A DNA stretch of 64,000 bases from the NCBI RefSeq assembly GCF_021228795.1, contig NZ_CP089309.1, positions 5,391,501 to 5,455,500 of the forward strand, given 5' to 3'. Below are positions 16,477-48,853 of the stretch, piece after piece. The notes beneath the pieces were generated by a model. It was given only the letters and a program-made list of their open reading frames with translations, had not been told where the DNA came from and did not search any database. Source of the DNA: Thiocapsa bogorovii (GTDB lineage Bacteria > Pseudomonadota > Gammaproteobacteria > Chromatiales > Chromatiaceae). The position numbers and the translations under genes are program-made. Each line of letters begins with the position of its first letter. Position 1 is the stretch's first letter.

Positions 16477-18066
16477 ATGATTTCCCTGCTCGACTACGGC
16501 GCCGGCAATGTACGTAGCCTCCGCAATGCCATCCATGCCCTGGGCTTCGATCTGACCGAGATCGAGCACCCGGCGGACATCCTCAAGGCGGAGCGTCTCA
16601 TCTTCCCCGGCGTCGGTTCCTTCGGGGCAGCGATGCAGCGTCTGCAGGCACTCGGTTATCTGGAACCCTTGCGCGAGTATCTCGCCGCGGGGCGCCCCTA
16701 TCTCGGGATCTGCATCGGCCTGCAGGCACTTTTCGAAGGCAGCGAGGAGTCCCCCGACGTGCCTGGACTCGGGATCATCCCGGGTCGGATACGCCGTTTC
16801 GAAGCGGGCACGCTCGCCGTCCCGCACATGGGGTGGAACGACGTTCGCGTGGAGCGCGACTCCCCCTTGTTCGCCGACTACGCCGGCGAGAAGCTCTACT
16901 TCGTGCACTCCTACTACGCCGAGCCTACCGCCGAGAACCGCGACTGGCAGCTCGCCAAGACGGACTACGGCCGGTCGTTTCTGAGCGCCGTCGAACGAGG
17001 ACGGATCTCCGCGGTTCAGTTTCACCCCGAGAAGAGTGCAAGCGCCGGGTTGCGGCTGCTCCGACGCTTTCTCGGCGGCGACGATCAGCCGCTGCACAAG
17101 ACGACCCCCTCGACCGATCGCAGTCCGACGCGTCTGGCCAAACGCATCATTGCCTGTCTGGACGTGCGCACCAACGACGCGGGTGATCTGGTCGTGACCA
17201 AGGGCGATCAATACGACGTGCGCGAGGCCGGCGAGGTCCGCAATCTCGGCAAACCGGTCGAGCTCGCGCAGCGCTATTACGAGGAGGGCGCCGACGAGAT
17301 CACCTTCCTCAATATCACCGCCTTCCGTGATTTCCCGCTTGCCGATCAGCCGATGCTCGAGGTCCTCGAACGGACCTCGGAGCGCGTCTTCGTGCCCCTC
17401 ACCATCGGCGGCGGGATCCGAGCCTTTCGCGACGCGCAAGGAACGGCGTATTCGGCACTCGATGTCGCCGACGCCTATTTCCGCGCCGGGGCGGACAAGA
17501 TCTCGATCGGCTCGGATGCGGTCGAGGCCGTCGAAGGTTATTTGCAACGCGGCGCCAAAGACGGCAGCACGGCGATCGAGCAGATCGCCCGGGTCTACGG
17601 TAACCAGGCGGTGGTCATCTCCATCGACCCGCGTCGCGTCTATATTCGCGCAACGGAGGAGACGCACCATCACACGGTCGAGACATCCACACCCGGACCC
17701 GATGGCGAGCGCTATTGTTGGTTTCAATGCACGGTGAAGGGTGGACGCGAAGGTCGCGACGTCGATGCCGTGGAGCTTGCCCGGGTTTGCGAGATCCTGG
17801 GAGCCGGCGAGATCCTGCTCAATTCGATCGATCGCGACGGGACGGGTGCAGGCTTCGACCTCGAGCTGGTCCATGCCGTGAGGTCGGCCGTCGGTATTCC
17901 CGTGATTGCCTCGAGCGGTGCAGGCTGTGTCGAGCACTTCGCGGAGGTGTTCGCAGCGACGGATGTCGAGGCCGCACTGGCTGCGGGGATCTTTCACCGG
18001 CGCGAGGTGCCGATTCAGGCCGTCAAATCGTATCTCCTCGCCCGGGGGATCGAGATTCGGGCCTGA
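16477..18066 (+). CDS. hisHF: Bifunctional imidazole glycerol phosphate synthase HisHF (fused)
   Basis: A 529-residue fusion of glutaminase HisH (1-200) and cyclase HisF (about 222-529), which converts PRFAR plus glutamine to IGP and AICAR in histidine synthesis. HisH has catalytic Cys79 (GICIGLQ), His183 and Glu185 (FHPEK). A 20-residue linker leads to HisF with the catalytic [10 protein letters not shown] D229 (ACLDVR) and D384 (ISIDPRR). The HisF part contains the long inserts and wording of yeast HIS7 and plant HISN4 (DVRTNDAGDLVVTKGDQYDV, LNITAFRDFPL, HFAEVF) rather than of short bacterial HisF. All key residues are intact. The clpP-like gene follows at once. Confidence 0.93.
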   Translation: MISLLDYGAGNVRSLRNAIHALGFDLTEIEHPADILKAERLIFPGVGSFGAAMQRLQALGYLEPLREYLAAGRPYLGICIGLQALFEGSEESPDVPGLGIIPGRIRRFEAGTLAVPHMGWNDVRVERDSPLFADYAGEKLYFVHSYYAEPTAENRDWQLAKTDYGRSFLSAVERGRISAVQFHPEKSASAGLRLLRRFLGGDDQPLHKTTPSTDRSPTRLAKRIIACLDVRTNDAGDLVVTKGDQYDVREAGEVRNLGKPVELAQRYYEEGADEITFLNITAFRDFPLADQPMLEVLERTSERVFVPLTIGGGIRAFRDAQGTAYSALDVADAYFRAGADKISIGSDAVEAVEGYLQRGAKDGSTAIEQIARVYGNQAVVISIDPRRVYIRATEETHHHTVETSTPGPDGERYCWFQCTVKGGREGRDVDAVELARVCEILGAGEILLNSIDRDGTGAGFDLELVHAVRSAVGIPVIASSGAGCVEHFAEVFAATDVEAALAAGIFHRREVPIQAVKSYLLARGIEIRA

Positions 18067-19137: not shown

Positions 19138-19287
19138 AAATTAGCAGAGTCTTTAAGCGGGCCGAAGCCATGCCCGCAACCAAGTGCGAACGGTCTCGAG
19201 GCCCGCTTCGCGAGAACCATGACATCGTTTGGTTCATCATGCGGTCTTCGTCCGCCCCGTCCGACCTTTGCCTGATTTGAGTTGTTT

Positions 19288-20154
19288 ATGGCATCCATCT
19301 TGACCGCTGTGGGTTTCATGGCCGCACTCGGCGTGCTGCTCGCCCTGATCCTGATCCTGGCGAATCGGCGGCTGTACGTCTACGAAGACCCGCGTATCGA
19401 TCAGGTCGAAGACTTGCTGCCGCGCGCGAACTGCGGTGCCTGCGGTACGGCGGGGTGTCGACCGTTCGCCGAGATGCTGGTCAAGGGTGAGATTGCGCCC
19501 GGCCGGTGCACCGTGAACTCGCCCGCGATGAACACGCTCATCGCCGATTTTTTGGGTGTGGACCTCGGCGCCGAAGAAAAGCGTGTGGCACGCCTGGCCT
19601 GCGCCGGCGGGGCCCACGTCGCCTTCCTGCGGGCCTCCTACGGCGGTCTGGAATCCTGCCGCGCAGCCGCCTTGGTCTCCGGCGGCGGGAAGGGTTGCTC
19701 ATGGGGCTGCCTGGGCATGGGCGATTGCGCCGAGGTCTGCGACTTCGATGCGATCCGACTCGATCGTCACGGCCTGCCGATCGTCGATGCCTCCAAGTGC
19801 ACCGCCTGCGGTGATTGCGTCACCGTCTGTCCGAAAGATCTCTTCAGCCTGCATGCGATCAGCCATCGCCTGTGGGTTGCGTGCAAGAACCTGGACCCGG
19901 GAGACGAGGGCGAGCATGAATGCGATGTCGTCTGCACCGCGTGCGGACGCTGCGCTCAGGATTCGCCCGAGGGTTTGATCGAGATTTGCGACAACCTGGC
20001 CGTCGTGGATTACGCCAAGAACGCGCTCGCCTCGAAGGTCGCGATCGAGCGCTGCCCGACCGGCGCCATTGTTTGGCTTGAACCCGACGGTCGGATCGTC
20101 AAAGGGAAGGACGCCAGAAAGGTGTTCCGCAAAGAGGCGTTGCCGTTGGCTTGA
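19288..20154 (+). CDS. rnfB: Ion-translocating electron transport complex subunit RnfB
   Basis: A 288-residue iron-sulfur protein. An N-terminal membrane helix (MASILTAVGFMAALGVLLAL) is followed by the RnfB four-Cys motif NCGACGTAGCRPFAEM plus a later Cys (residues 45-75), a Cys-rich segment (GCSWGCLGMGDCAEVC) and ferredoxin-like motifs CTACGDCVTVC and CTACGRCAQD. It passes electrons from ferredoxin to the membrane arm. At 288 residues it is longer than E. coli RsxB (192), like the long RnfB of acetogens. ATG 19288 is chosen over the TTG 6 bases upstream. It is the first gene of the operon. Confidence 0.92.
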   Translation: MASILTAVGFMAALGVLLALILILANRRLYVYEDPRIDQVEDLLPRANCGACGTAGCRPFAEMLVKGEIAPGRCTVNSPAMNTLIADFLGVDLGAEEKRVARLACAGGAHVAFLRASYGGLESCRAAALVSGGGKGCSWGCLGMGDCAEVCDFDAIRLDRHGLPIVDASKCTACGDCVTVCPKDLFSLHAISHRLWVACKNLDPGDEGEHECDVVCTACGRCAQDSPEGLIEICDNLAVVDYAKNALASKVAIERCPTGAIVWLEPDGRIVKGKDARKVFRKEALPLA

Positions 20155-20298: not shown

Positions 20299-23200
20299 AT
20301 GTTCGGAAAGCCCAAGTTCGCAAATAAGGACGAGAAGCAGGTCAAGTATCCCGGAACACGGATGGCGATGGACGGCAACACCGCCGTGATCATGTGCGAG
20401 CGCGAAGCCTCGGACGCTGCCGGTGCCTATCCCATCACGCCTTCGACCCAGATGGGCGAGTATTGGTCCGAAGAGGTTGCCAAAGGTCACCTCAACGTGT
20501 CGGGAAACCCGCTGATCTTCGTCGAGCCCGAATCCGAGCACGCCGCAGCGGCGGTCACCGCCGGCATGTCCATGACCGGCCTGCGCGCGGTGAACTTCTC
20601 CTCGGCTCAGGGCGTGGCCTTCATGCACGAGTCGCTCTACGCGGCGGTCGGCAAGCGTCTGCCCTATGTGCTCAACATCGGCGCGCGCGCCATCACCAAG
20701 TCGAGCCTGAACGTGCATTGCGCGCACGACGATTATCACTGCATCGACGACACCGGTTTCACCCAGGTCTACGGCAAGAGCGCGCAAGAGGCGGCGGATC
20801 TGAACCTGATCGCCCGCAAGATCGCCGAGCTGACCTTGACGCCCGCCGCGGTGGGTCAAGACGGCTTTCTAACCACCCATCTGATCGAGCCGTTGCTCGT
20901 CCCCGAGCGTGAGTTGATCGCCGAGTTTTGCGGTCGCCCCGACGACATCATCGCCTGCCCGACCCCGGCCCAAAAGTTGGTCTACGGACCGACCCGGCGC
21001 CGCGTCCCCATGGTTTGGGACGTCGACAACCCGGTGACATCGGGCTCCGTGCAAAACCAAGACGCCTACATGCAGGCCGTCGCCGCCCAGCGCCCTTACT
21101 TCTTCGATCACATCGAGCCGATTGCCGAGCAGGTGATGGACGAATTCCATGCACTGACCGGGCGGCGCTATCAGCGTGTCGGCGGATACCGCACCGAGGA
21201 TGCCGACTACCTCATCCTCGGCCAAGGCAGCATGATCACCCAGGCCGAGGCGGTGACCGATTACCTGCGCGAGACCCGCAAGCTCAAGGTCGGCGTCGTC
21301 AACCTGACGATGTACCGGCCTTTTCCGGGCGATCTCATCGGGCAAATGCTCAAAGGCAGAAAGGGCGTGGCCGTGCTCGAACGCACCGACCAGCCGCTCG
21401 CGGAAGACCTTCCGGTGATGCGTGAGGTCCGCTCCGCCCTCACCAAGTGTCTGGAGAACGGCAGCGTCGAGAAGGGCGAGCGCATGCCCTATCCGGACTA
21501 CGCCGTCTATCGCCAGGGCGACATGCCGCGACTCTATTCGGGGTGCTACGGGCTGGGCTCGCGCGATCTTCAGCCCGAGGGCCTGATCGCCGCGATCGAG
21601 AACATGCTTCCCGGTGGCGCGCACCGTAAATTCTTCTACCTGTCGGTCGACTTCATCCGCAAACCCTTCGACCCCAAGGACGAGATCCGCATCCAGGCCC
21701 TCAAGGACGCCTATCCGCACATCGGCGAGCTCGCCTTGCGCGGCAGCGAGAACCCGAACCTCCTGCCCAAGGGCGCCATCACGGTGCGCATGCACTCTGT
21801 CGGCGGCTGGGGTGCGGTCACGACCGGGAAAAACCTGGCGATGACCCTTTATGACTTGCTGGGTTTCGATATCCGCGCCAATCCCAAGTACGGCTCGGAG
21901 AAGAAGGGTCAGCCGACCACCTATTTCCTCTCTGCCGCACCCGAGCCGATTCGGCTCAACTGCGAATACACCTATGTCGACGTGGTTCTGAGCCCGGACC
22001 CGAACGTCTTCACGCACTCCAATCCGCTCGCCGGACTGGATCGGGGAGGGCGCTTCATCGTCCAGTCGAGCCTCGACAACCCGGAGCAGGTCTGGGCCAG
22101 CTTCCCGCCGGCCGCGCGCAAATACATCGTCGAGCACGAGATTCGCGTCTACTACATCGACGGCTTCAAGATCGCCCGTGAAGAGGCGTCCGATCCGGAG
22201 CTGCAGATCCGCATGCAGGGCAACACCTTCCAGGGAGCCTTCTTCGCCGCTTCCCCTCTGATGGAGCGCGCAGGGCTCGACGAGGCCGGACTCTTCTCCG
22301 CCATGGAGGAGCAGATCCGTCACAAGTTCGGCGCCAAGGGCGAGCGTGTCGTGCAGGACAACCTGCGCATCGTGCGCCGCGGCTTCGACGAGATCGTCGA
22401 GATCGTCGACAAGCCGCTGATCAGCGGTCAGCTGCTGCCCCGCAAGGAGGTCGGCCTGCCGGTCATGCTCAAACAGTTGCCCGAAGGCGACGGCGGCGTG
22501 ACCGACGTGCATCGCTTCTGGGAGCAGACCGGCGCCTTCTACGCGAGCGGTCGCGGCAGCGACAATCTGGCCGATCCGCACATGGCCCTGTCGCTGATGC
22601 CCGCCTCCAGCGGCGTCTATCGCGACATGACGCAGATCCGCTTTACCTATCCCAAGTACGTCCCCGAGAACTGCACCGCCTGCGGCAACTGCTTCTCGGT
22701 CTGTCCCGACAGCGCCATCCCGGGTCTGGTCAACAGGGTCTCCGACATCTTTGCAGCCGCGATCGCCCGGGTGGAGCGCGGCATGCCCACCCAGCACCTG
22801 CGCCGCGAGACCCGCAACGTCGAGAAGCGTCTGCGCAAACTCATCGATGCGGCCGGGGATGCCCCCGACATGCGCGAGCTGATGGACCGCGCGGTGCTCG
22901 AGACCCTGGCCGCCTATCAGGGCGAGCCCGAGCAAAAGGCCGCGATGGAGCAGGAATTCGGCCTCATGATGCAGGCCCTCGGCGACTATCAATTCGCCGT
23001 CACCAAACCCTACTGGAACAACCGCGAGAAGAAGCAGAAAGGCAGCGGCGGACTCTTCAGCATCACCGTCAACCCCTATACCTGCAAGGGCTGCAACGAG
23101 TGTATCGAGGTCTGCGACGACGGCGCCCTTGTCTCCGAGCCCCAGACCACGGAAACCATCGAGCAGATGCGCGCCAAGTGGGACTTCTGGCTCGACCTGC

Positions 23201-25242
23201 CGACGACAGGTCCGGAGTTCATCCGCATCGATGATCTGGACGACAAGATCGGCGCGCTCGAGACCTTGCTGCTCGACAAGTCGAACTACCAATCGATGGT
23301 CTCGGGCGACGGCTCCTGCATGGGCTGCGGCGAGAAGACCGTCATTCACCTCTTCACCGCCACCGTCGCGGCGTTGATGCAACCCCGTGTCAAGCGTCAC
23401 CTCGCCGATCTCGACGACCTGATCAACCGACTCGAGACCCATGTCCGGTTGAAGCTCGCCGCCAAGATCGACCTGACCAATTCGGCAGCGATCAGTAAAG
23501 CGGTCAACGCACACAAGGACGCGGACCTGCGCCTGTCCGACCTATCCGCCGAGCTGGATCATGACCGCAGCGCCGAGCCGGTCGATCCCGAGTGGCTGAC
23601 CTGGGTGACGGGTGTTCTCGACAAGCTGCGTCATCTCAAGTCGCAGTACACCGCCGTCCAACCACGCTCATCCATGGGGATCGTCAACGCCACCGGCTGC
23701 TCCTCGGTCTGGGGCGCAACCTTCCCCTTCAATCCTTATCCCTTTCCCTGGTCGAATCATCTCTTCCAGGATTCGCCCTCGATCGCACTCGGTCTCTTCG
23801 AAGGCCACATGCGCAAGATGGGCGAGGGCTTCAAGGCGATCCGCATGGCGCGTCTGGAGCTCGAGCGGGGCTACAACCCGGCCGAGCACGGCGAGGCACT
23901 GACCTATTTCGGCTGGAAAGACTTCTCCGACGAAGAGTGGCTGCTCTGTCCGCCGGTCGTCGCGGTCGGCGGCGACGGGGCTATGTACGACATCGGCTTC
24001 CAAAACCTCTCGCGTGCGCTCATGTCCGGCCACCCGGTCAAGATCATGGTGCTCGACACCCAGGTCTACTCCAATACGGGTGGTCAGTCCTGCACCTCCG
24101 GCTTCATCGGCCAGGTCGCCGACATGGCCCCCTACGGCAAAGTCGGCAAAGGCAAGACCGAGATCCGCAAGGAGATGGGCCTGATCGGTATGGCTCACCG
24201 CACCAGCTTCGTGCTCAACGGCGCGGCCGGCAATCTCACGCATCTGCTCGAGGGCTTCATCGACGGACTCAATGCCCGTCACCCGGCGCTGTTCAACATC
24301 TACACCAGCTGCCAACCCGAGCACGGCATCGGCGACGAGATGTCCACGCATCAAAGCCGGATGGCCATCGAGTCCCGCGCCTATCCGCTCTTCCGCTTCG
24401 ACCCGGATGCCGGCACCAGCTTCGAGGAATGCTGCTCCATCGAGGGCAACCGGAACATCGACCAGGACTGGATCAGCTGGACGCTGAAGTACACCGACGA
24501 GAAGGGCGAGCCGGCCGAGATGACCGTCCCCTTTACCTTCGCGGACTTTGCGATGACCGAGGGCCGGTTCCGCAAACACTTCCGCAAGGCCCCGCCCGAG
24601 ACCTGGAACGACGCCATGATCCCCATGGCCGAGTTCCTGGAGATGGACGAGGACGCACGCATCGGGCACTTCCCCTACGTCTGGGGCGTGGACGGCAAGA
24701 ACCGTTTGATGCGTGTCCTGGTTTCCCAAGAGCTGGTTGCCTCCTGCGAAGAGCGCCGTGCCTTCTGGACACAGCTGCGCGGCATCTGCGGCCATCTCAA
24801 TAAGGTCGACGTCGAGCAGGTGCGCAACCAGGCCAAGGCCGAGATGGCGCAAAAGCTCACCAGCAGCCTGCTCGCCATGGCCGGCGGCGACGTCGGAGCA
24901 TTGGCATCCTTCGCGGGCGGCGGCAACGGCCACGGCGGCAACGGTGCCTCGGCAGCGAGCGGCAATGGCGCCGGCAACGGCGTAGCGACCGACTGGGAGC
25001 CGGTCTGGGTCGAGACCCCGGAATGCACCGCCTGCGATGAGTGCATCACGATCAACCCGAAGATCTTCAAATACAACGCCGAGAAAAAGGTCGAGGTGAT
25101 CGATCCCAAGGGCGGCTCCTACCAGGACATCGTGAAGGCCGCCGAGAAGTGCACCGCCGGCTGCATCCACCCGGGGACCCCCTGGAACCCGGCCGAGGCC
25201 GGCCTGGAGAAGCTGCTTAAGCGTGCGGCGAAGTACCAGTAG
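20299..25242 (+). CDS. Giant PFOR/NifJ-like 2-oxoacid:ferredoxin oxidoreductase
   Basis: A 1647-residue thiamine-diphosphate enzyme, versus about 1170-1200 for normal PFOR. Domain order follows NifJ: domain I (GAYPITPSTQMGEYW), domain III, and two [4Fe-4S] motifs at about 792 (CTACGNCFSVCP) and 928 (CKGCNECIEVCD). Then come the proximal cluster CMGCGE at about 1006, NATGCSSVWG near 1130 and the TPP motif GDGAMYDIGF near 1225. Extra parts are about 80 residues between the ferredoxin clusters, about 100 helical residues at 1020-1120, and a Gly/Asn-rich linker (1538-1560) leading to a C-terminal single-cluster ferredoxin (CTACDEC...CTAGC). It sits between rnfB and rnfC. Pyruvate is the likely but unproven substrate. 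Confidence 0.88.
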   Translation: MFGKPKFANKDEKQVKYPGTRMAMDGNTAVIMCEREASDAAGAYPITPSTQMGEYWSEEVAKGHLNVSGNPLIFVEPESEHAAAAVTAGMSMTGLRAVNFSSAQGVAFMHESLYAAVGKRLPYVLNIGARAITKSSLNVHCAHDDYHCIDDTGFTQVYGKSAQEAADLNLIARKIAELTLTPAAVGQDGFLTTHLIEPLLVPERELIAEFCGRPDDIIACPTPAQKLVYGPTRRRVPMVWDVDNPVTSGSVQNQDAYMQAVAAQRPYFFDHIEPIAEQVMDEFHALTGRRYQRVGGYRTEDADYLILGQGSMITQAEAVTDYLRETRKLKVGVVNLTMYRPFPGDLIGQMLKGRKGVAVLERTDQPLAEDLPVMREVRSALTKCLENGSVEKGERMPYPDYAVYRQGDMPRLYSGCYGLGSRDLQPEGLIAAIENMLPGGAHRKFFYLSVDFIRKPFDPKDEIRIQALKDAYPHIGELALRGSENPNLLPKGAITVRMHSVGGWGAVTTGKNLAMTLYDLLGFDIRANPKYGSEKKGQPTTYFLSAAPEPIRLNCEYTYVDVVLSPDPNVFTHSNPLAGLDRGGRFIVQSSLDNPEQVWASFPPAARKYIVEHEIRVYYIDGFKIAREEASDPELQIRMQGNTFQGAFFAASPLMERAGLDEAGLFSAMEEQIRHKFGAKGERVVQDNLRIVRRGFDEIVEIVDKPLISGQLLPRKEVGLPVMLKQLPEGDGGVTDVHRFWEQTGAFYASGRGSDNLADPHMALSLMPASSGVYRDMTQIRFTYPKYVPENCTACGNCFSVCPDSAIPGLVNRVSDIFAAAIARVERGMPTQHLRRETRNVEKRLRKLIDAAGDAPDMRELMDRAVLETLAAYQGEPEQKAAMEQEFGLMMQALGDYQFAVTKPYWNNREKKQKGSGGLFSITVNPYTCKGCNECIEVCDDGALVSEPQTTETIEQMRAKWDFWLDLPTTGPEFIRIDDLDDKIGALETLLLDKSNYQSMVSGDGSCMGCGEKTVIHLFTATVAALMQPRVKRHLADLDDLINRLETHVRLKLAAKIDLTNSAAISKAVNAHKDADLRLSDLSAELDHDRSAEPVDPEWLTWVTGVLDKLRHLKSQYTAVQPRSSMGIVNATGCSSVWGATFPFNPYPFPWSNHLFQDSPSIALGLFEGHMRKMGEGFKAIRMARLELERGYNPAEHGEALTYFGWKDFSDEEWLLCPPVVAVGGDGAMYDIGFQNLSRALMSGHPVKIMVLDTQVYSNTGGQSCTSGFIGQVADMAPYGKVGKGKTEIRKEMGLIGMAHRTSFVLNGAAGNLTHLLEGFIDGLNARHPALFNIYTSCQPEHGIGDEMSTHQSRMAIESRAYPLFRFDPDAGTSFEECCSIEGNRNIDQDWISWTLKYTDEKGEPAEMTVPFTFADFAMTEGRFRKHFRKAPPETWNDAMIPMAEFLEMDEDARIGHFPYVWGVDGKNRLMRVLVSQELVASCEERRAFWTQLRGICGHLNKVDVEQVRNQAKAEMAQKLTSSLLAMAGGDVGALASFAGGGNGHGGNGASAASGNGAGNGVATDWEPVWVETPECTACDECITINPKIFKYNAEKKVEVIDPKGGSYQDIVKAAEKCTAGCIHPGTPWNPAEAGLEKLLKRAAKYQ

Positions 25243-25300
25243 GCGCACCGAGACGCGCGATCGCGCCGGTGCCGTCAGGCGCGGCGTGCCGCAGCGCAGC

Positions 25301-25325
25301 GTGCCGGGCCCGACGGGCCCGGTGC
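25301..25325 (+). promoter_or_regulatory. GC-rich hairpin between the PFOR-like gene and rnfC
   Basis: CCGGGCCC and GGGCCCGG form a perfect 8-bp stem with a 3-base loop, which can extend to 11 pairs with G-U pairs. No T-run follows, so it is more likely a message-processing or differential-expression hairpin than a terminator. It lies in the 123-base gap before rnfC. Confidence 0.5.
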
Positions 25326-25365
25326 GAAGCGCGATCCCGATCCCAACCCAACACAGCAGTCACGC

Positions 25366-26712
25366 ATGGGTCTTTTCAGTCTCTTCCAACGCCATCGCAC
25401 CTTCGACCACGGCATCTACCCGGTCGAGCACAAGGAGCTGACGGCGGACAAGCCGATCCGGCGGCTCCCCTTTGCGCCCGAGCTGGTCATCCCGCTCGCC
25501 CAGCATAAGGGGGCGCCGGCCGTGCCCTTGGTCAAGGTCGGCCAGGAGGTTGTGCGGGGCGAGCCGATCGCCCGCGCCGAGGGCTTCGTGTCGGTCCCCA
25601 TGCATGCCCCGGCGACCGGGGTGATCCGGGCGATCGCGCTGACACCCACAGCCGACGGACCCAAGACGCAAGCGATCTTCCTCAAGGTCTACGAGGCCGC
25701 GAGCCAAGAGGTACTCTATGACCTGGAGCGCGACCTCGACACGATGACGTCCGAGGAGATCGTCGCGGCCGTGCAGGATGCCGGGTTGGTCGGACTCGGC
25801 GGCGCGGCCTTCCCGAGCCATGTCAAGCTGAAGCCACCGGCGGGGAAGGTGATCGAGACGGTCGTCGTCAACGGCTGCGAATGCGAGCCCTACCTGACCT
25901 GCGACCATCGGATCATGCTCGAGCAGAGCGATGCCTTGATCCGCGGCATCAAGCTCGCGCTCAAGGCGACCGGCGCCAAGCGGGCCATCATCGGTGTCGA
26001 GGACAACAAGCTCGACGCGGTCGCGCACCTGCGGGCGGTCTTGCCGAAGGATCTGCCGATCACCGCCGAAGCCGTCGAGACCAAATATCCGCAAGGCGCG
26101 GAGAAGATGCTCATCAAGAGCCTCCTGCGAAAAGAGGTTCCGGTCGGCGGCCTGCCGGCGGATATCGGCGTGGCGGTCTACAACGTCGGCACACTCGCCC
26201 AAATGGGCGATCTCTTGCCCAGGGGCAGGGGACTGATCGAGCGCGTTGTTACCGTAAGCGGTCCGGCGGTTGCCAACCCGGGCAACTTCATGGTCCCGAT
26301 CGGTACACCCTTGCGGTTCCTGCTCGAGCAGGTCGGGCTCGCGGCGGACCGGGTCGGCGAGGTCATCCTCGGGGGCCCCATGATGGGCATGGCGGTCGCC
26401 TCGCTCGATGTGCCGGTAACGAAGGCCGTCTCGGGCGTCGTGGCACTGGAACGTGAAGACCCTGACCTGGACAGGCGTAAGGTCTATCCCTGTATCAAGT
26501 GTGCAGAATGTCTCAAGGCGTGCCCGGTCTCGCTCAATCCATCCATGCTCGGCGAGCTGGCGCTGGCCCGTCAGTACGAGCGCATGGCCGAGGAATTCAA
26601 CCTGAACCAATGCTTCGAATGCGGTTGCTGCGCCTATGTGTGCCCCTCCAACATCCCGCTGACGCAGTATTTCCGGATCGCCAAATCGATCAATCGAGAT
26701 CGCAATGCCTAA
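25366..26712 (+). CDS. rnfC: Rnf complex subunit RnfC
   Basis: A 448-residue peripheral subunit that binds NADH and FMN and carries two [4Fe-4S] clusters. The Rossmann-like segment GLVGLGGAAFPSHVKL (about 135-150) and the SLBB region precede the ferredoxin motifs CIKCAECLKACP (near 375) and CFECGCCAYVCP (near 415). It lacks the long Ala-rich C-terminal repeat region of E. coli RsxC, so it matches the short form of Rhodobacter. ATG 25366 starts MGLFSLFQRHRTFDHG, the usual beginning. It overlaps rnfD by 8 bases. Confidence 0.95.
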   Translation: MGLFSLFQRHRTFDHGIYPVEHKELTADKPIRRLPFAPELVIPLAQHKGAPAVPLVKVGQEVVRGEPIARAEGFVSVPMHAPATGVIRAIALTPTADGPKTQAIFLKVYEAASQEVLYDLERDLDTMTSEEIVAAVQDAGLVGLGGAAFPSHVKLKPPAGKVIETVVVNGCECEPYLTCDHRIMLEQSDALIRGIKLALKATGAKRAIIGVEDNKLDAVAHLRAVLPKDLPITAEAVETKYPQGAEKMLIKSLLRKEVPVGGLPADIGVAVYNVGTLAQMGDLLPRGRGLIERVVTVSGPAVANPGNFMVPIGTPLRFLLEQVGLAADRVGEVILGGPMMGMAVASLDVPVTKAVSGVVALEREDPDLDRRKVYPCIKCAECLKACPVSLNPSMLGELALARQYERMAEEFNLNQCFECGCCAYVCPSNIPLTQYFRIAKSINRDRNA

Positions 26713-27754
26713 GCCCATCGAGATCAGAACCTCCCCGCATCTGAAGCGGGCGATCAGCGTCGACCGGATCATGCGCAACGTGGTCTTTGCGCTCTTACCG
26801 ATCTGTGCCTTCGCGGTCTTTCAATTCGGACTGAGTGCGCTGCTCTTGATCCTCACCACGACAGGCGCGGCGATCGCGACCGAGTGGTTTTTCGCGCGGG
26901 CGAGCGGGCAGGGCAATACCGTCTCGGATTGGTCCGTCGTCATCACGGGGATCCTGCTCGCGCTGACCTTGCCCCCGGGCTTTCCGCTCTGGATGGCGGC
27001 GGTCGCCGCCTTCGTCGGCGTGGCCTTGGGCAAGGCGCTGTTCGGCGGGCTGGGATACAACGTCATGAATCCGGCCCTGGTCGGGCGCGCCTTTGTGCAG
27101 GCGGCCTTCCCGGTCGCGATCACGACCTGGACCCCCGCGTTCGCGCCCGGTCGCTTCACCGAGGTCATCCCCTCGACCTTCACGCTGCCCTTCATGCAGC
27201 CGACCCCGGTCAAGGACTGGATCATGGGTCTCCAGCTCGACGCCTGGACCGGTGCCACGCCGCTTGCACTGCAGAAGTTCCAGCAGATCGAGCCGCCGGT
27301 CACCGAGGTCTTCACCGGGATGATCGCCGGTTCCGCCGGCGAGACCTCCGCTCTCCTGATCCTGATCTGCGGACTCTGGCTCGCCTTCAAACGCATGCTG
27401 GACTGGCGCATCCCCGTCGCCGTAATGGCCGGTGCGGCGCTCACGGCGCTGCCCTTTTGGTTGATGGACAGCAGTGTCTATCCGAGCCCCTGGTTCGTGC
27501 TCTTCTCGGGCGGACTCATGCTCGGGGCCTGGTTCATGGCCAGCGACATGGTCGCCTCGCCGGTTACCACCAGCGGCGTCATCCTCTACGGACTCTTCAT
27601 CGGCATCGTGACGGTCGTGATCCGTCTGTTCGGCGGCCTCGTGGAGGGCGTGATGTACGCGATCCTGCTCGCCAATGCCGCCGGACCCTTGATCTCGAGC
27701 TGGACACAGCCGCGGGTCTACGGCGCGATCAAGAAGACGCGGGAGGTCGAGTAG
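26705..27754 (+). CDS. rnfD: Rnf complex subunit RnfD
   Basis: A 349-residue integral membrane subunit homologous to NqrB. It has about nine helices, from RNVVFALLPICAFAVFQFG to the C-terminal VEGVMYAILLANAAGPLI. The covalent FMN site is the Thr in DAWTGATPLALQ (near 180). It belongs to the ion-translocating core with RnfA, E and G. It overlaps rnfC by 8 bases and is followed after 3 bases by rnfG, so these three are tightly coupled. Confidence 0.94.
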   Translation: MPKPIEIRTSPHLKRAISVDRIMRNVVFALLPICAFAVFQFGLSALLLILTTTGAAIATEWFFARASGQGNTVSDWSVVITGILLALTLPPGFPLWMAAVAAFVGVALGKALFGGLGYNVMNPALVGRAFVQAAFPVAITTWTPAFAPGRFTEVIPSTFTLPFMQPTPVKDWIMGLQLDAWTGATPLALQKFQQIEPPVTEVFTGMIAGSAGETSALLILICGLWLAFKRMLDWRIPVAVMAGAALTALPFWLMDSSVYPSPWFVLFSGGLMLGAWFMASDMVASPVTTSGVILYGLFIGIVTVVIRLFGGLVEGVMYAILLANAAGPLISSWTQPRVYGAIKKTREVE

Positions 27755-27757
27755 GAG

Positions 27758-28462
27758 ATGAGCATCAAGGTTGAGGTTCAACCCGGGGGTCCGACGGGGC
27801 CGGGTGCGCAGATCGCACCCAGCTGGCCGATGCTGCGCACCCTGGCCGGCATCGCGATCCTCTCGGGCCTCCTGGTGGTCCTGGTCTATCAGGCGACCAA
27901 GCCGATCATCGCCGAGAACGAGCGAATCCTGACCGAGCAGGCGGTCTTCGAAGTACTGCCGGGCGCCGTTTCGAAGGTCGACTTCGTGCTGACCGATCAA
28001 GGTTTGGCGCCGGCGGGCGAGGGTGCGGTCGGCGTGACCGTGTTCGCCGGATTCGGAGCCGACGGACGTCTGCGCGGCATCGCTTTTCCCGGCGCCGCGC
28101 GCGGCTATCAAGACGTGATCCAGTTCCTCTTCGGCTACGATCCCGCGTGCGAGTGCATCATCGGCAGCAAGGTCTTGCGATCGACCGAAACACCGGGGCT
28201 GGGGGATAAGATCGACTCGGATCCGGCCTTTCTCGAGAACTTCGTGTCGCTCGACGCCAGCCTGAACCCCGAAGGCACGGGCCTGGCCAATCCGATTGTC
28301 CTGGTCGCGCACGGCACCAAGACTGACCCCTGGCAGATCGACGGCATCTCGGGTGCAACCATCTCGGGCAAGGCGATGGCTCGGGCGGCAAACGATGCCG
28401 CGGAGCGCTTTGTGCCAAATATTCGCCGAGATCTCGCCAAGCTCGCCGCGGCAGCGCCGTGA
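27758..28462 (+). CDS. rnfG: Rnf complex subunit RnfG
   Basis: A 234-residue subunit homologous to NqrC. One N-terminal helix (LRTLAGIAILSGLLVVLVYQ, about 28-47) anchors a periplasmic FMN-binding domain. The covalent FMN attachment motif ISGATISGKAM is near residue 200, with Thr as the acceptor. The flavin is normally attached by ApbE, whose gene is not in this window. It sits between rnfD and rnfE with 33 bases before the latter. Confidence 0.94.
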   Translation: MSIKVEVQPGGPTGPGAQIAPSWPMLRTLAGIAILSGLLVVLVYQATKPIIAENERILTEQAVFEVLPGAVSKVDFVLTDQGLAPAGEGAVGVTVFAGFGADGRLRGIAFPGAARGYQDVIQFLFGYDPACECIIGSKVLRSTETPGLGDKIDSDPAFLENFVSLDASLNPEGTGLANPIVLVAHGTKTDPWQIDGISGATISGKAMARAANDAAERFVPNIRRDLAKLAAAAP

Positions 28463-28495
28463 TCAGCACCCTATTCGCGCTAAGAGGGACGACCC

Positions 28496-29158
28496 ATGGC
28501 TGAATTGCCCAATCCGCAGGAAACGTTGAGCCTAGATACCTTCCTAAGGGGGCTCTGGCAAGAGAATCCGGTCTTTGCGATGCTGCTCGGCATGTGTCCG
28601 GTCCTGGCCGTCACCAACTCGACCATGAACGCGATCGCGATGGGGCTGGCGACGACCTTCGTGCTGGTGTGCTCAAGCCTGCTGATCTCGCTCCTGCGCA
28701 ACTGGATCCCCAAACAGGTTCGCATCGCCAGCTACATCATCATCATCGCGACCTTCGTCACCATCGTCGACTACGGGATTCAGGCGATCAGTCTGGAACT
28801 CTATGCCGCACTCGGCGCCTTCATTCAGCTGATCGTGGTGAACTGCGTCATCCTCGGGCGTGCCGAGGCCTATGCCTCGAAACAGCGCCTGCACACGACC
28901 TTGGTCAACAGTCTCGGAATGGGCGCGGGATTCACCATTGCACTGCTCGCACTCGGTACCGTTCGGGAGATCCTCGGCAGCGGAAGCATCCTCGGGATCG
29001 CCTTGTTCGGCGAAGGCTTCCAACCCTGGGTGGTGATGATTCTTCCGCCGGGCGGCTTCTTCGTGCTCGGGACTTGGCTGCTGCTCTTCAACTGGCTACG
29101 TCAGCGTAAGGAACGCAAGGTCATGGACCAATCCGGAGTCGCCGCCAATGCAGGATGA
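28496..29158 (+). CDS. rnfE: Rnf complex subunit RnfE
   Basis: A 220-residue membrane protein with six helices, homologous to NqrD. The inverted-topology core includes MLLGMCPVLAVTNSTMNAIAMG and VNCVILGRAEAYA; in this family conserved cysteines, such as those in GMCPVLAV and VNCVILGRA, help to hold an iron centre at the RnfA-RnfE interface. AGAGGGACGACCC upstream of ATG 28496 serves as the ribosome site. It overlaps rnfA by 11 bases. Confidence 0.95.
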   Translation: MAELPNPQETLSLDTFLRGLWQENPVFAMLLGMCPVLAVTNSTMNAIAMGLATTFVLVCSSLLISLLRNWIPKQVRIASYIIIIATFVTIVDYGIQAISLELYAALGAFIQLIVVNCVILGRAEAYASKQRLHTTLVNSLGMGAGFTIALLALGTVREILGSGSILGIALFGEGFQPWVVMILPPGGFFVLGTWLLLFNWLRQRKERKVMDQSGVAANAG

Positions 29159-29738
29159 ATCGCTCTATTTCATCTTTTTGAATGCAGCTGTCGTCAACAA
29201 CTTCGTACTGGCGCTCTTTCTCGGCATTTGTCCCTTCCTGGGTGTCTCGGCGAAGAAAGACACCGCGTGGAACATGGGCCTGGCGGTTATCTTCGTCATG
29301 CTGGTCAGCTCGATGAGCGCCTACGGGATCAATTGGCTGCTGACGGAGCTCGATCTGCTCTTCCTGCGGCTTATCTGCTATATCGCGGTGATCGCCTCCG
29401 CGGTGCAGTTGGTCGAGATGTTCGTCAAACGCTACAGCCCCGCGCTCTTTCGCTCGCTCGGTATCTTTCTGCCCTTGATCACGACCAACTGCGCCATCCT
29501 GGGCCTCGCGCTCTTTCAGACCGCGAAGGAGTACGACTTCGTGCAGAGCCTGGTCTATGCCCTCGGGGCGGGTGGCGGCTTCATGCTGGCCTTGATGCTG
29601 ATGGCCGGGCTGCGCGAGAAGCTAGAGCTTGCCCGCGTGCCCAGCGTCAGCCAGGGCGCGGCCATGAGCCTCATGCTGGCGGGGCTTCTGTCGCTCGCCT
29701 TCATGGGCTTCGCCGGGCTCGGGGGCTCGCATGGTTAA
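29148..29738 (+). CDS. rnfA: Rnf complex subunit RnfA
   Basis: A 196-residue membrane protein homologous to NqrE, the inverted-topology partner of RnfE. The core motifs LALFLGICPFLGVSAK and LITTNCAILGLALF carry the two cysteines that help to bind the intramembrane iron centre. Six helices are predicted. It overlaps the end of rnfE by 11 bases, and the small Cys-rich gene starts inside its last codons (8-base overlap), so all three are coupled. Confidence 0.96.
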   Translation: MQDESLYFIFLNAAVVNNFVLALFLGICPFLGVSAKKDTAWNMGLAVIFVMLVSSMSAYGINWLLTELDLLFLRLICYIAVIASAVQLVEMFVKRYSPALFRSLGIFLPLITTNCAILGLALFQTAKEYDFVQSLVYALGAGGGFMLALMLMAGLREKLELARVPSVSQGAAMSLMLAGLLSLAFMGFAGLGGSHG

Positions 29739-29898
29739 GGTGCTCTCGGCCTCGCTGGTCATCTTTCTGGTGCTCGCGGCTTGGGTCCTGGTGGAGCGCA
29801 TCTATGCCGCTTTCGCCGCCCGACATCCGGAGCTCGGACCCTTCCGGCGCAACGACGGCGGTTGTTCATGCGGCAGCGGGAGTTGCGAGCGTCGCTAA
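29731..29898 (+). CDS. Small single-helix Cys-rich membrane protein
   Basis: A 55-residue protein starting MVKVLSASLVIFLVLAAWVL, a single membrane helix, followed by a short charged stretch and the tail GGCSCGSGSCERR with three cysteines. Its ATG lies inside the end of rnfA, which supports real translation. Layout recalls NqrM (DUF539), the one-helix Cys protein that delivers iron to the NqrD/NqrE centre of Na+-NQR, although the wording differs. I infer a maturation role for the RnfA/RnfE iron centre. Alternatives are a FeoB-associated type Cys-rich peptide or an assembly factor. Confidence 0.7.
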   Translation: MVKVLSASLVIFLVLAAWVLVERIYAAFAARHPELGPFRRNDGGCSCGSGSCERR

Positions 29899-30036
29899 GC
29901 AGCGGCCTTACGAGCGGGACCGGCGCGGAAGAAGGCATGATTTTCAGCTTCGTCGTCGCGCGTGCGGCGCCGACACATTATATCCATCTCGTCTCGGCTC
30001 CAATGGGGCCGGCAAGATCAAAGGAGCACCTAAAAC

Positions 30037-30897
30037 ATGAGTGAAGCCACGGCCGAATTGGGTCCTACGACTCAGGCATTCATCAAGGATTCCAGGCGAA
30101 TCACACCGGAGAAATCCGACGAGGTCCGCCATATCACCCTCCAGGTGCCCGATCCCGCTTTTCAGTTCGTCGAGGGCCAAAGCATCGGCGTGATCGTTCC
30201 CGGACCGCATCCGTTCGGCAATCCGTACCATCTCCGGCGTTATTCGATTGCAAACGCGCGCAGTCTTCCGGTCGACACCGGGGTTGAGATCGATCTTCTG
30301 GTACGCCGCTGCTTCTATATCGACGAGGTCAGCGGAGAGCGCTATCCGGGTATCGCCTCGAACTATCTTTGCGATGCGAAGGCGGGTGCCTCGTTGACGA
30401 TCAGTGGCCCCTATCTCAGTCCCTTCAAGATGCCGTTGGACAATCGGGCCAACCTACTCATGATCGGGACCGGGACCGGCATTGCGCCGTTTCGGGCCTT
30501 TGCACAACTGATCTACGAGCGGCGCGGTGATTGGAAGGGACAGGTTCGGCTTTATTACGGCGGCCGCAGCGGTCTGGATCTCATGTACACCAACGACGAG
30601 ACCACCGATCTTGCCAACTATTACGACGAGAAGACCTTCAAGGCGTTCCGGGCCCTCGGCACGCGTCCCTTGATGACCTCATCGCAGGCCTTGGAGCACG
30701 GTTTAGCCGACAACGCCGACGATGCATTGCACCTCATCAACGAACCCAACACGCACGTCTTCCTGTCGGGACTGGGCAAGATCGCGGTGGTCTTCGACAA
30801 GGTGATGGCCGAACGCGTAGGGTCATCCGAAGAGTGGAAAGCGATCAAGGAGAGGATGATCGACGAGGGACGTTGGTCCGAGCTGATCTACGATTGA
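30037..30897 (+). CDS. Ferredoxin-NADP+ reductase-like flavoprotein
   Basis: A 286-residue plant-type FNR. The FAD site is RRYSIANAR (about 68-76) with GIASNYLCDAKAG; the NADP site is GTGTGIAPFRAF (about 148-159), then LYYGGRSG and FLSGLGKIA. It lacks its own ferredoxin domain, so it needs a separate iron-sulfur partner. Sequence style resembles the reductase part of BoxA and other FNR-like proteins of anaerobes. It lies 138 bases after the small Cys-rich gene in the same direction as the rnf operon and could exchange electrons between ferredoxin and NADP(H). Confidence 0.88.
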   Translation: MSEATAELGPTTQAFIKDSRRITPEKSDEVRHITLQVPDPAFQFVEGQSIGVIVPGPHPFGNPYHLRRYSIANARSLPVDTGVEIDLLVRRCFYIDEVSGERYPGIASNYLCDAKAGASLTISGPYLSPFKMPLDNRANLLMIGTGTGIAPFRAFAQLIYERRGDWKGQVRLYYGGRSGLDLMYTNDETTDLANYYDEKTFKAFRALGTRPLMTSSQALEHGLADNADDALHLINEPNTHVFLSGLGKIAVVFDKVMAERVGSSEEWKAIKERMIDEGRWSELIYD

Positions 30898-43897: not shown

Positions 43898-47500
<3,603 letters not shown>

Positions 47501-47506
<6 letters not shown>

Positions 47507-47592
47507 ACCGCGCCCGGTGAGATCTGCGTCGTGTGTTGGATTGGCTTGACCGCGCCAGCTCCAAGAACTGTCGGAGCTGGCGCGGTTTAAGG
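47501..47592 (+). terminator. Nested hairpin after nifJ, TAAACCGCG-type element
   Basis: An inner stem of 13 perfect pairs (47550-47562 with 47573-47585, GGAGCTGGCGCGG side) has a 10-base loop and is followed by TTTAA. Outer ends CCTTAAACCGCGCC (47501-47514) and GGCGCGGTTTAAGG (47579-47592) are also perfect inverted repeats, so two alternative structures compete. The left end covers the nifJ stop codon. A related element is at 41090-41175. Confidence 0.65.
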
Positions 47593-47750
47593 AATTAAAG
47601 GAGATTTGTTTTGAACCGCATCTTCACAAAGGGCGGACAGACGATGAAGCCAGACACAACATGAAAATGACGCATTTCACTCTGGACGCGTTTCAGATGT
47701 TCACCGGGAGCCGCGTATCGCGCGAGCGGGGGCATCGGGCCCCGCCACAA

Positions 47751-47769
47751 CCGGGGCGGAACGCCCCGG
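47751..47769 (+). promoter_or_regulatory. Hairpin in the leader of the dihydroorotate dehydrogenase-like gene
   Basis: CCGGGGCG and CGCCCCGG form an 8-bp stem with a 3-base loop, about 70 bases upstream of ATG 47837. The rest of the gap 47593-47836 shows no supported gene. Confidence 0.4.
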
Positions 47770-47836
47770 CCCTTGTCGCGACCACTCCCCTCGATCACCG
47801 TCGGGTGACCCCTTATTCTTTGCCGGAGCAATCGCT

Positions 47837-48853
47837 ATGGATCTCACGACCAACTATCTCGGGCTGACGATCAAGAATCCCCTGGTTCCTTCCGCCTCGC
47901 CGCTGTCCAAGAGCGTCGCCATCGCGCGCGAGCTCGAAGACCACGGCGCCGCGGCCATCATCATGTGGTCACTCTTCGAAGAGGCCGTCACCGCCGAGTC
48001 CGAGAGCATGGTGCGCTTTCTGCACCACCAGGACATCGGCTTCGGCGAGGCCGAGAGCGGCTTTCTGCCCGCTCATCAGGACTTCGAGGGCGCACTCGAG
48101 CGCTATCTGGACAACATCCGCAAGCTCAAGGACGCACTCGACATCCCCGTCATCGCCAGCCTCAACGGCGTCACGCCCGGCGGTTGGATCAAGCACGCAA
48201 CCGAGCTGCAGCAGGCCGGGGCCGACGCCCTCGAGCTCAATGTCTACTATGTCGCCGGCGATGTGACCCAAACCGGGCTTCAGGTCGAGGAGCGTTACCT
48301 CGACCTCCTGCGCGCGCTTCGCGGGCACATCCAGATCCCGATCAACATGAAGCTCTCCCCGAGCTTCAGCTCGATCGGCAACTTCGTCGGCCAGGTCGCG
48401 GCAGCAGGCGCCAACGGAGTGGCCCTCTTCAATCGCTTCTATCAGCCCGACATCAACATCGACAGCCTGCGTCTGCAATCGAGCCTGCACCCCTCGACCT
48501 CCGCCGAGGCCCTGCTCGCCATGCGCTGGATCGCCATCCTTTACGGACGTTTCGACGGCCTCTCGCTCGGCGCGACCGGCGGCGTACACACCTCGGCGGA
48601 CGCCATCAAGCTCCTGCTCGCAGGCGCCGACGTCGTGCACCTGTGCAGCGCGCTCCTCGGCAAAGGACCGGCTTATACGGCGCAGATCCTCGCGGGGATC
48701 CAAGACTGGATGGAGGAACAGGGATTCGAGTCAGTGGAAGACTTCCGCGGCCGCGTCAGCGCCATCTCGGTCCCGAACCCGGCGGAGCTCGAGCGCGCCA
48801 ACTACGTCAACATCCTGGACAGCTACAGCTTCTCGCCGGGTGTGATGGTTTAG
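47837..48853 (+). CDS. Dihydroorotate dehydrogenase-like FMN protein
   Basis: A 338-residue TIM-barrel flavoprotein of the DHOD-like group that often neighbours nifJ in cyanobacteria and phototrophs. It has MDLTTNYLGLTIKNPLVPSA, VIASLNGVTPGGWIKHATEL, LELNVYY, PINMKLSPSFSSIGNF and the phosphate-binding GATGGVHTSADAIKLLLAGA. It lacks the usual loop wording of true PyrD, so dihydroorotate may not be the substrate. Its link with PFOR suggests a redox or pyruvate-related role, which is not established. Confidence 0.88.
   Translation: MDLTTNYLGLTIKNPLVPSASPLSKSVAIARELEDHGAAAIIMWSLFEEAVTAESESMVRFLHHQDIGFGEAESGFLPAHQDFEGALERYLDNIRKLKDALDIPVIASLNGVTPGGWIKHATELQQAGADALELNVYYVAGDVTQTGLQVEERYLDLLRALRGHIQIPINMKLSPSFSSIGNFVGQVAAAGANGVALFNRFYQPDINIDSLRLQSSLHPSTSAEALLAMRWIAILYGRFDGLSLGATGGVHTSADAIKLLLAGADVVHLCSALLGKGPAYTAQILAGIQDWMEEQGFESVEDFRGRVSAISVPNPAELERANYVNILDSYSFSPGVMV

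Follow-up and report, generated by a model that had tools for sequence, protein, structure and literature searches.

A PFOR-like protein with a tethered ferredoxin encoded between rnfB and rnfC in Thiocapsa bogorovii and in other bacteria

The window analyzed here is a 64,000-nucleotide stretch of the Thiocapsa bogorovii genome (contig NZ_CP089309.1, positions 5,391,501 to 5,455,500), in which a gene for a protein resembling pyruvate:ferredoxin oxidoreductase (PFOR) lies within a cluster of rnf genes. According to the open reading frame (ORF) list, the order is rnfB, the PFOR-like gene, rnfC, rnfD, rnfG, rnfE, rnfA and an FNR-like gene, all on the + strand, with successive gaps of 144, 123, -8, 3, 33, -11 and 298 nt. 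A preliminary description of this DNA, made from the sequence alone, had placed the PFOR-like gene between rnfB and rnfC on the same strand with short gaps, and the ORF coordinates confirmed this arrangement. Rnf and PFOR are thought to meet through soluble ferredoxin. The PFOR-like gene (20299-25242) encodes a 2-oxoacid:ferredoxin oxidoreductase homolog of 1647 aa, hereafter type I, with the Pfam domains POR_N, PFOR_II, POR, TPP_enzyme_C and Fer4_13. An assembly or frame artefact was rejected as its origin, as a nearly full-length match was found in 10 of 10 genomes of the same genus (in G008 the match is in two pieces). Because relatives show the same gene order, the cluster is not a product of chance.

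The six rnf genes correspond to the subunits of the Rnf ferredoxin:NAD oxidoreductase (rnfABCDGE), and five of the products exceed the curated cut-offs: RnfB, the electron-input subunit (290 aa; 19282-20154; TIGR01944, 79.1 bits against 68.7), RnfC (448 aa; 25366-26712; TIGR01945, 501.7 against 246), RnfD (26705-27754; TIGR01946, 298 against 207), RnfE (28496-29158; TIGR01948, 232.8 against 213) and RnfA (29148-29738; TIGR01943, 238.7 against 229). RnfG (27758-28462) remained under its cut-off (TIGR01947, 86.8 against 102 bits) and matched FMN_bind (PF04205). The last gene (30037-30897) encodes a PetH/BoxA-like FNR-like flavoprotein of 286 aa, which exceeded the cut-off of PF00175 (36.9 against 22 bits), fell narrowly short of that of PF00970 (19.5 against 21.1) and stayed far from the NCBIfam model for FNR (PetH), NF045929 (137 of 600 bits). 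The intergenic stretch between the PFOR-like gene and rnfC (25243-25365, + strand) contains a strong predicted hairpin (-65.8 kcal/mol, z = -2.74, matched by 2 of 200 shuffles), at which no T run was seen. This hairpin could give the two parts of the cluster different expression levels. Promoter-like sites (3, shuffle mean 2.1) and terminator-like sites (7, against 7.9) were both close to the numbers in shuffles.

The PFOR-like protein is 445 aa longer than the NifJ encoded in the same window (43898-47506; 1202 aa), close to the excess of about 450 residues given in the preliminary description. Motif spacing located the additional residues. The two ferredoxin motifs are 80 residues further apart than in NifJ, corresponding to an insert of four predicted helices (residues 814-894; 22738-22980), and 99 residues are added before NATGCSS, where AlphaFold2 predicted a helical insert (residues 1011-1118; 23329-23652) with main helices at 1011-1055 and 1097-1118. 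Both inserts had been proposed beforehand. An extension of 79 residues between YPITP and the first ferredoxin motif had escaped the preliminary description, and the distance between NATGCSS and GGDG is 31 residues shorter than in NifJ. After SNTGGQ, 389 residues follow, compared with 190 in NifJ. This tail had been described as a Gly/Asn linker ending in an additional single-cluster ferredoxin; the ferredoxin was borne out, whereas the linker is of Gly/Ala type, since residues 1528-1568 (41 residues) comprise 14 Gly, 9 Ala and 4 Asn. The linker is predicted to be disordered (residues 1522-1564; 24862-24990), with a predicted local distance difference test score (pLDDT) below 50.

The last 77 residues (1571-1647; 25009-25239) fold as a ferredoxin in the AlphaFold2 model, which was computed for residues 450-1647 with a 50-row alignment (mean pLDDT 72, predicted TM-score 0.65). 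Pfam Fer4_13 spans residues 1572-1624, and Cys 1576, 1579, 1582 and 1618 are invariant in the window protein and five aligned relatives (6/6). In a Foldseek search, the tail matched Desulfovibrio africanus ferredoxin I (1fxr; E = 0.012, rank 50, 58 columns, root-mean-square deviation 0.9, target TM-score 0.84). The best Foldseek matches were PFOR chains (6cin, E = 7e-30; 7plm; 1b0p), with a global TM-score of only about 0.3, and the relative placement of domains in the model is therefore unreliable.

Canonical PFOR/NifJ (TIGR02176), as in D. africanus and Moorella thermoacetica, has the same domain order, thiamine pyrophosphate (TPP) motif, proximal four-cysteine set and two-cluster ferredoxin domain. 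In the PFOR-like protein, the TPP motif (GDG at 1224, SNTGGQ at 1258), YPITPS and the substrate Arg are retained, as are all twelve PFOR cluster cysteines: C1007, C1010, C1134 and C1338, which we take from PFOR structures to be the proximal-cluster ligands, and the two 4Fe-4S motifs (C792-802 and C929-939), which do not vary among the aligned rows. Individual catalytic and cluster residues presumably have the roles assigned to them in PFOR. However, the protein differs from canonical PFOR/NifJ in its two helical inserts, in its tethered ferredoxin and in forming a separate branch, and it shows only 29% identity to the NifJ of its own window over residues 22-811. The EKR domain (PF10371), present in the window NifJ, was not found in it by Pfam at E 0.01. 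It scored 404.2 bits against the equivalog model TIGR02176 (cut-off 911; NifJ control 1740.6). An elongated NifJ was rejected on account of the separate tree branch and this score far below the cut-off. By its sequence, the protein is assigned to a separate PFOR lineage that keeps the catalytic and cluster motifs.

A scan of species genomes returned at least 581 relatives of all kinds, and the type I counts given here rest on the best 80 of them. These were from Pseudomonadota (59), Bacteroidota (8), Acidobacteriota (4), Verrucomicrobiota (2), Hydrogenedentota (2), Myxococcota (2) and Calditrichota (1), with two unassigned. The set covers seven phyla, although phylum labels may be wrong because many of the loci are metagenome bins. 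rnfC lies directly downstream in all 66 loci with at least 1 kb of downstream sequence, and rnfB directly upstream in 63 of the 71 with at least 1 kb upstream. Among the remaining eight, three have rnfB after FNR (L094, L103 and L104), and none was seen in the other five. Complete rnfCDGEA was found in 48 of 49 loci with 6 kb downstream. Two further loci, on Persicobacter and Gemmatirosa replicons catalogued as plasmids, have the same order. The tethered ferredoxin is present in all 77 loci (of 82) with a complete C-terminus, 75 by pattern and two by eye.

Since the best 80 are top scorers, genomes were also sampled regardless of gene context. In a class sample, 32 of 369 genomes had a match; by our reading of the matches, 21 carry type I, nine carry type II (three carry both) and five carry type IV. 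The flanks of 20 of these 21 type I genes were retrieved, the remaining one being that of the window itself, and at least two of these loci (L051 and L079) are also among the best 80. rnfC was adjacent in 17, rnfB alone, at a contig end, in two, and the last is G058, which is weighed below. In a phylum sample (match in 47 of 398 genomes), two type I genes were found besides that of T. bogorovii, both with rnf.

Type II clusters were found at 13 loci (L107, L108, L109, L111, L142-L149 and L237). They consist of korA, korB, a half-PFOR gene and rnfB, followed, in the 12 loci where the contig reaches, by a second PFOR relative of 1143-1573 aa that we call the dead PFOR. It lies beside rnfB in 12/12 and is followed by rnfC in 11/12; in L145, the 3.6 kb that remain before the contig start contain no rnfC. 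Eight of the 12 dead PFORs were aligned (three short ones and L237 were left out). None of the eight keeps any proximal-cluster Cys, GDG, SNTGGQ or YPITPS, and the catalytic-Glu position is lost in seven (L108 has Glu there), while the substrate Arg is kept in seven. All 12 lack NTGGQ and have two CxxCxxCxxxC motifs. The tethered ferredoxin of type II is on the half-PFOR (about 810-860 aa; one ORF call of 750). It was detected by pattern in 11 of 12; in L142 it was missed because the ORF call ended early, and tblastn covers the end. The L237 half-PFOR also has CxxCxxC, and Pfam Fer4_13 was found in both half-PFORs tested. The L107 half-PFOR matches no NCBIfam model.

KorAB, a 2-oxoacid:ferredoxin oxidoreductase, is part of the type II clusters and also neighbors some of type I. 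Unlike the type I PFOR, it is a separate small enzyme, which in type II is joined with degenerate PFOR pieces and Rnf. KorB keeps CxxC, GIGC and GDG in all 12 examined. KorA of type II passes only a general 2-oxoacid model, and the KorB tested (L107) is under its cut-off. In five of the 13 loci, sucC and sucD are inserted between the dead PFOR and rnfC; two of these pairs were checked and both pass NCBIfam cut-offs. The presence of sucCD in the cluster points to 2-oxoglutarate and succinyl-CoA as the type II reaction. The PFOR body itself may matter to Rnf, the strongest hint being that the dead PFOR is retained between rnfB and rnfC. The type II cluster makes a wiring role for the PFOR-like protein more likely. 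One Calditrichota contig (L237 and L093) carries clusters of both type II and type I, close together and in the same orientation.

Two other types of relatives were found. Type III comprises nine PFORs of 1677-1710 aa (L110 and L185-L192), all of which keep SNTGGQ, GGDG, NATGC(S/T)S, the proximal CxxC, two ferredoxin motifs and the C-terminal CxxCxxC domain. All nine adjoin a fused Nfn-like (GltD/PyrK) gene, and the one tested passes NF009415. Type III resembles type I in pairing a tethered-ferredoxin PFOR with a flavoprotein gene, but it branches deeper and no rnf was found in the stretches fetched. As eight of the nine are from one genus, they represent few independent cases; a later search covered four of these eight genomes (G402, G408, G411 and G430), and all four have an rnfC on another contig. 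The expectation that homologs longer than 1600 residues always occur with rnf held for the family of the window protein (66/66 loci with enough downstream sequence) and failed for G058 and for this Nfn-linked lineage (9/9). Type IV consists of short two-gene PFORs, of which six loci were examined (L150-L152 and L195-L197), leaving out 33 phylum-sample and two class-sample genomes with type IV-like matches. None of the six stretches fetched contains rnf, and none of the six proteins has CxxCxxC in the visible C-terminal 150 residues, with L150 truncated where its contig stops.

In PFOR trees rooted on NifJ, type IV branches first, followed by type III and then by types I and II as sisters (support 98 and 97 in two trees), although type II branches are long and the tree program flags their joining. 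Three of the six type IV proteins were included, and they branch between NifJ and the long PFORs. Support for type I monophyly was 98 in one tree and 68 in the other. In a midpoint-rooted RnfC tree, types I and II form one group (SH-like approximate likelihood ratio test 100, branch length 0.67) apart from 22 ordinary RnfC rows. The Rnf of the window therefore differs from ordinary Rnf in that its RnfC falls within this PFOR-linked group, with type II, in addition to adjoining a PFOR-type gene. The first rnfC of L093, initially labelled ordinary, also fell inside this group, and its upstream DNA is a type II cluster. Type I is not one group in the RnfC tree, because the type I row from Gemmatirosa groups with type II (support 87, left open). 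A starred group of seven rows, drawn from Myxococcota, Calditrichota, Bacteroidota and Woeseiaceae, recurs in the RnfC tree and in the PFOR tree that gave type I a support of 98; with four phyla in this group, it appears as if the cluster travels as a unit. The simplest history we infer is that the tethered ferredoxin came first, the Rnf partnership arose before types I and II split, and catalysis was lost in type II.

The genes after rnfA vary. In 65 loci, rnfA is followed by FNR in 34, phosphoenolpyruvate (PEP) synthase in 10, both in none and neither in 21, with L093 scored as neither through its other rnfA (FNR does occur at L093). The non-overlap of FNR and PEP synthase has a hypergeometric chance of 0.0002, relatedness being ignored. 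The FNR-like flavoprotein, earlier suggested as an NADPH branch, is therefore not general, and FNR as a fixed part of the module was rejected. PEP synthase meets its NCBIfam cut-off, and the regulator gene PpsR lies alongside in some loci.

Taken together, these data suggest that the PFOR-like protein is probably a dedicated partner of a distinct Rnf lineage, with 2-oxoacid chemistry wired directly to Rnf. This reading is favored by the adjacency of rnfC and rnfB, the tethered ferredoxin of all C-terminally complete proteins, the RnfC grouping, the sister relationship of types I and II, the seven-row group shared by the PFOR and RnfC trees, the dead PFOR of type II, the flavoprotein pairing of type III, and the PEP synthase and sucCD neighbors. 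The protein would interconvert a 2-oxoacid, most likely pyruvate plus CoA, with acetyl-CoA and CO2. Electrons would pass through the three PFOR clusters to a fourth on the ferredoxin, which may swing on the disordered linker, replace a diffusible ferredoxin and exchange electrons with RnfB. RnfB is a likelier partner than RnfC, because it is described as the subunit accepting ferredoxin electrons (PMC12174285). The oxidoreductase and the ion-pumping, NAD-linked Rnf may act as one unit. The interpretation given in the preliminary description, a putative PFOR-Rnf supercomplex in which the tethered ferredoxin would pass electrons to RnfB or RnfC, gained partial support. In type II, KorAB would have taken over catalysis, and the PFOR body would have stayed as an electron-transfer adaptor.

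Several points weigh against direct wiring. The support comes entirely from sequence, gene order, phylogeny and anatomy. With gaps of 123-144 nt on either side, one of them containing a hairpin, the PFOR-like gene may be transcribed separately, and among relatives with enough sequence about half have FNR. In G058, a C-terminal PFOR-like part has no rnf in the next 8 kb, whereas the start of another contig carries a type I-like rnfC together with rnfDGEA and FNR. The dead PFOR may have another role. The T. bogorovii genome also has aceE, isocitrate lyase, two further rnf clusters and the canonical nifJ of the window, and its gene content therefore fixes neither the need for the enzyme nor its direction. 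The genes might instead be coupled only functionally, through a shared soluble ferredoxin pool, with the tethered ferredoxin as an internal relay to many partners and the clustering serving co-regulation. The type III proteins without adjacent rnf, the FNR-like partners in 34/65 operons and the separated gene of G058 would all fit this. Against it stand the near-absolute adjacency in type I, the specificity of the Rnf lineage and the retention, next to rnfB in type II, of a PFOR that has lost its catalytic motifs. We therefore consider coupling alone rather unlikely.

The direction of the reaction is a separate matter, as the reaction is probably reversible. For Thiocapsa, we slightly favor synthesis of pyruvate at the expense of the ion gradient, which fits the PEP synthase (with PpsR in some) after rnfA in 10/65 loci, where pyruvate would be made and used; the presence of aceE also argues against a mainly oxidative role. 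However, the same module may run from pyruvate oxidation through Rnf to NADH and an ion gradient, as an energy-saving alternative to pyruvate dehydrogenase. This direction, which overlaps with direct wiring, was proposed for the Solemya velum symbiont (PMC4287430), and the 2-oxoacid oxidoreductase with succinyl-CoA synthetase in type II (5/13) fits oxidative as well as reductive flow; it is a serious contender, if somewhat short of an even chance. A substrate other than pyruvate would be consistent with the missed PFOR equivalog cut-off (404 of 911 bits) and the lacking EKR domain, but it is improbable in view of the YPITPS, Arg and SNTGGQ of PFOR and the PEP synthase neighbors. Rnf and NifJ have known roles in nitrogen fixation, and the canonical nifJ is about 19 kb away; even so, electron supply for nitrogenase, as with classical Rnf1 or NifJ, is very improbable here, since the window NifJ and the two other Rnf clusters of the genome could fill that role.

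If direct wiring is correct, the tethered ferredoxin would turn the carboxylation or decarboxylation of 2-oxoacids into a direct entry to or exit from the ion circuit. The dead PFOR beside rnfB is a natural experiment separating catalysis from electron transfer. It is slightly more plausible than the contrary that these clusters encode an unrecognized class of energy-converting complex in several phyla, in which an Rnf lineage would bind a 2-oxoacid oxidoreductase with a covalently tethered ferredoxin and directly couple the chemistry of pyruvate in type I, or of 2-oxoglutarate in type II with the dead PFOR as the KorAB adaptor, to the ion gradient.

The gene order rnfB-PFOR-rnfC is already in print for one organism. 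In the S. velum symbiont (L049 in our set), the rnf2 cluster has a PFOR gene between rnfB2 and rnfC2, and pyruvate was proposed as electron donor (PMC4287430, 2014). The available part of that account contains nothing on length, tethered ferredoxin, spread or lineage, and the type II sister cluster is newly described here. Searches of open-access literature brought up no account of this architecture, of how widely it occurs or of the dead-PFOR variant. Allochromatium vinosum has three rnf clusters, and the role of its Rnf complexes was called "entirely unclear" (PMC3368242). As two other Allochromatium species are in our set (L030 and L031), one such cluster would gain a concrete, testable job. 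The T. bogorovii genome paper lists two K03737 genes, LT988_24065 and nifJ (LT988_24180), and Rnf does not occur in its main text. LT988_24065 is likely the PFOR-like gene of the window. Another set of 2-oxoacid oxidoreductase matches lies at 2.99 Mb of the genome.

Other neighbors of type I clusters were less regular. A search of 82 type I loci found neither sucC nor sucD. KorA/KorB-like genes adjoin the Algoriphagus cluster (L103; alpha over and beta under the subfamily cut-off), and in Gemmatirosa (L021) at least a KorA-like alpha subunit is adjacent by Pfam. ApbE-like genes lie near a few clusters, and the one tested falls under its NCBIfam cut-off. A LysR-type regulator gene is often divergent upstream. 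In five Sedimenticola-type loci (L034-L036, L038 and L070), a thiol peroxidase gene, perhaps for oxygen protection, lies between the PFOR-like gene and rnfC; the one tested (L036) exceeds its cut-off.

Elsewhere in the window, HisH and HisF are fused in a 529-aa protein (16477-18066, + strand; GATase and His_biosynth). Such fusions are known mainly from eukaryotes. At 43898-48853 (+ strand), a dihydroorotate-dehydrogenase-like gene (47837) comes after the canonical nifJ, a pair that is also annotated on plasmids of Methylovirgula and Phenylobacterium.

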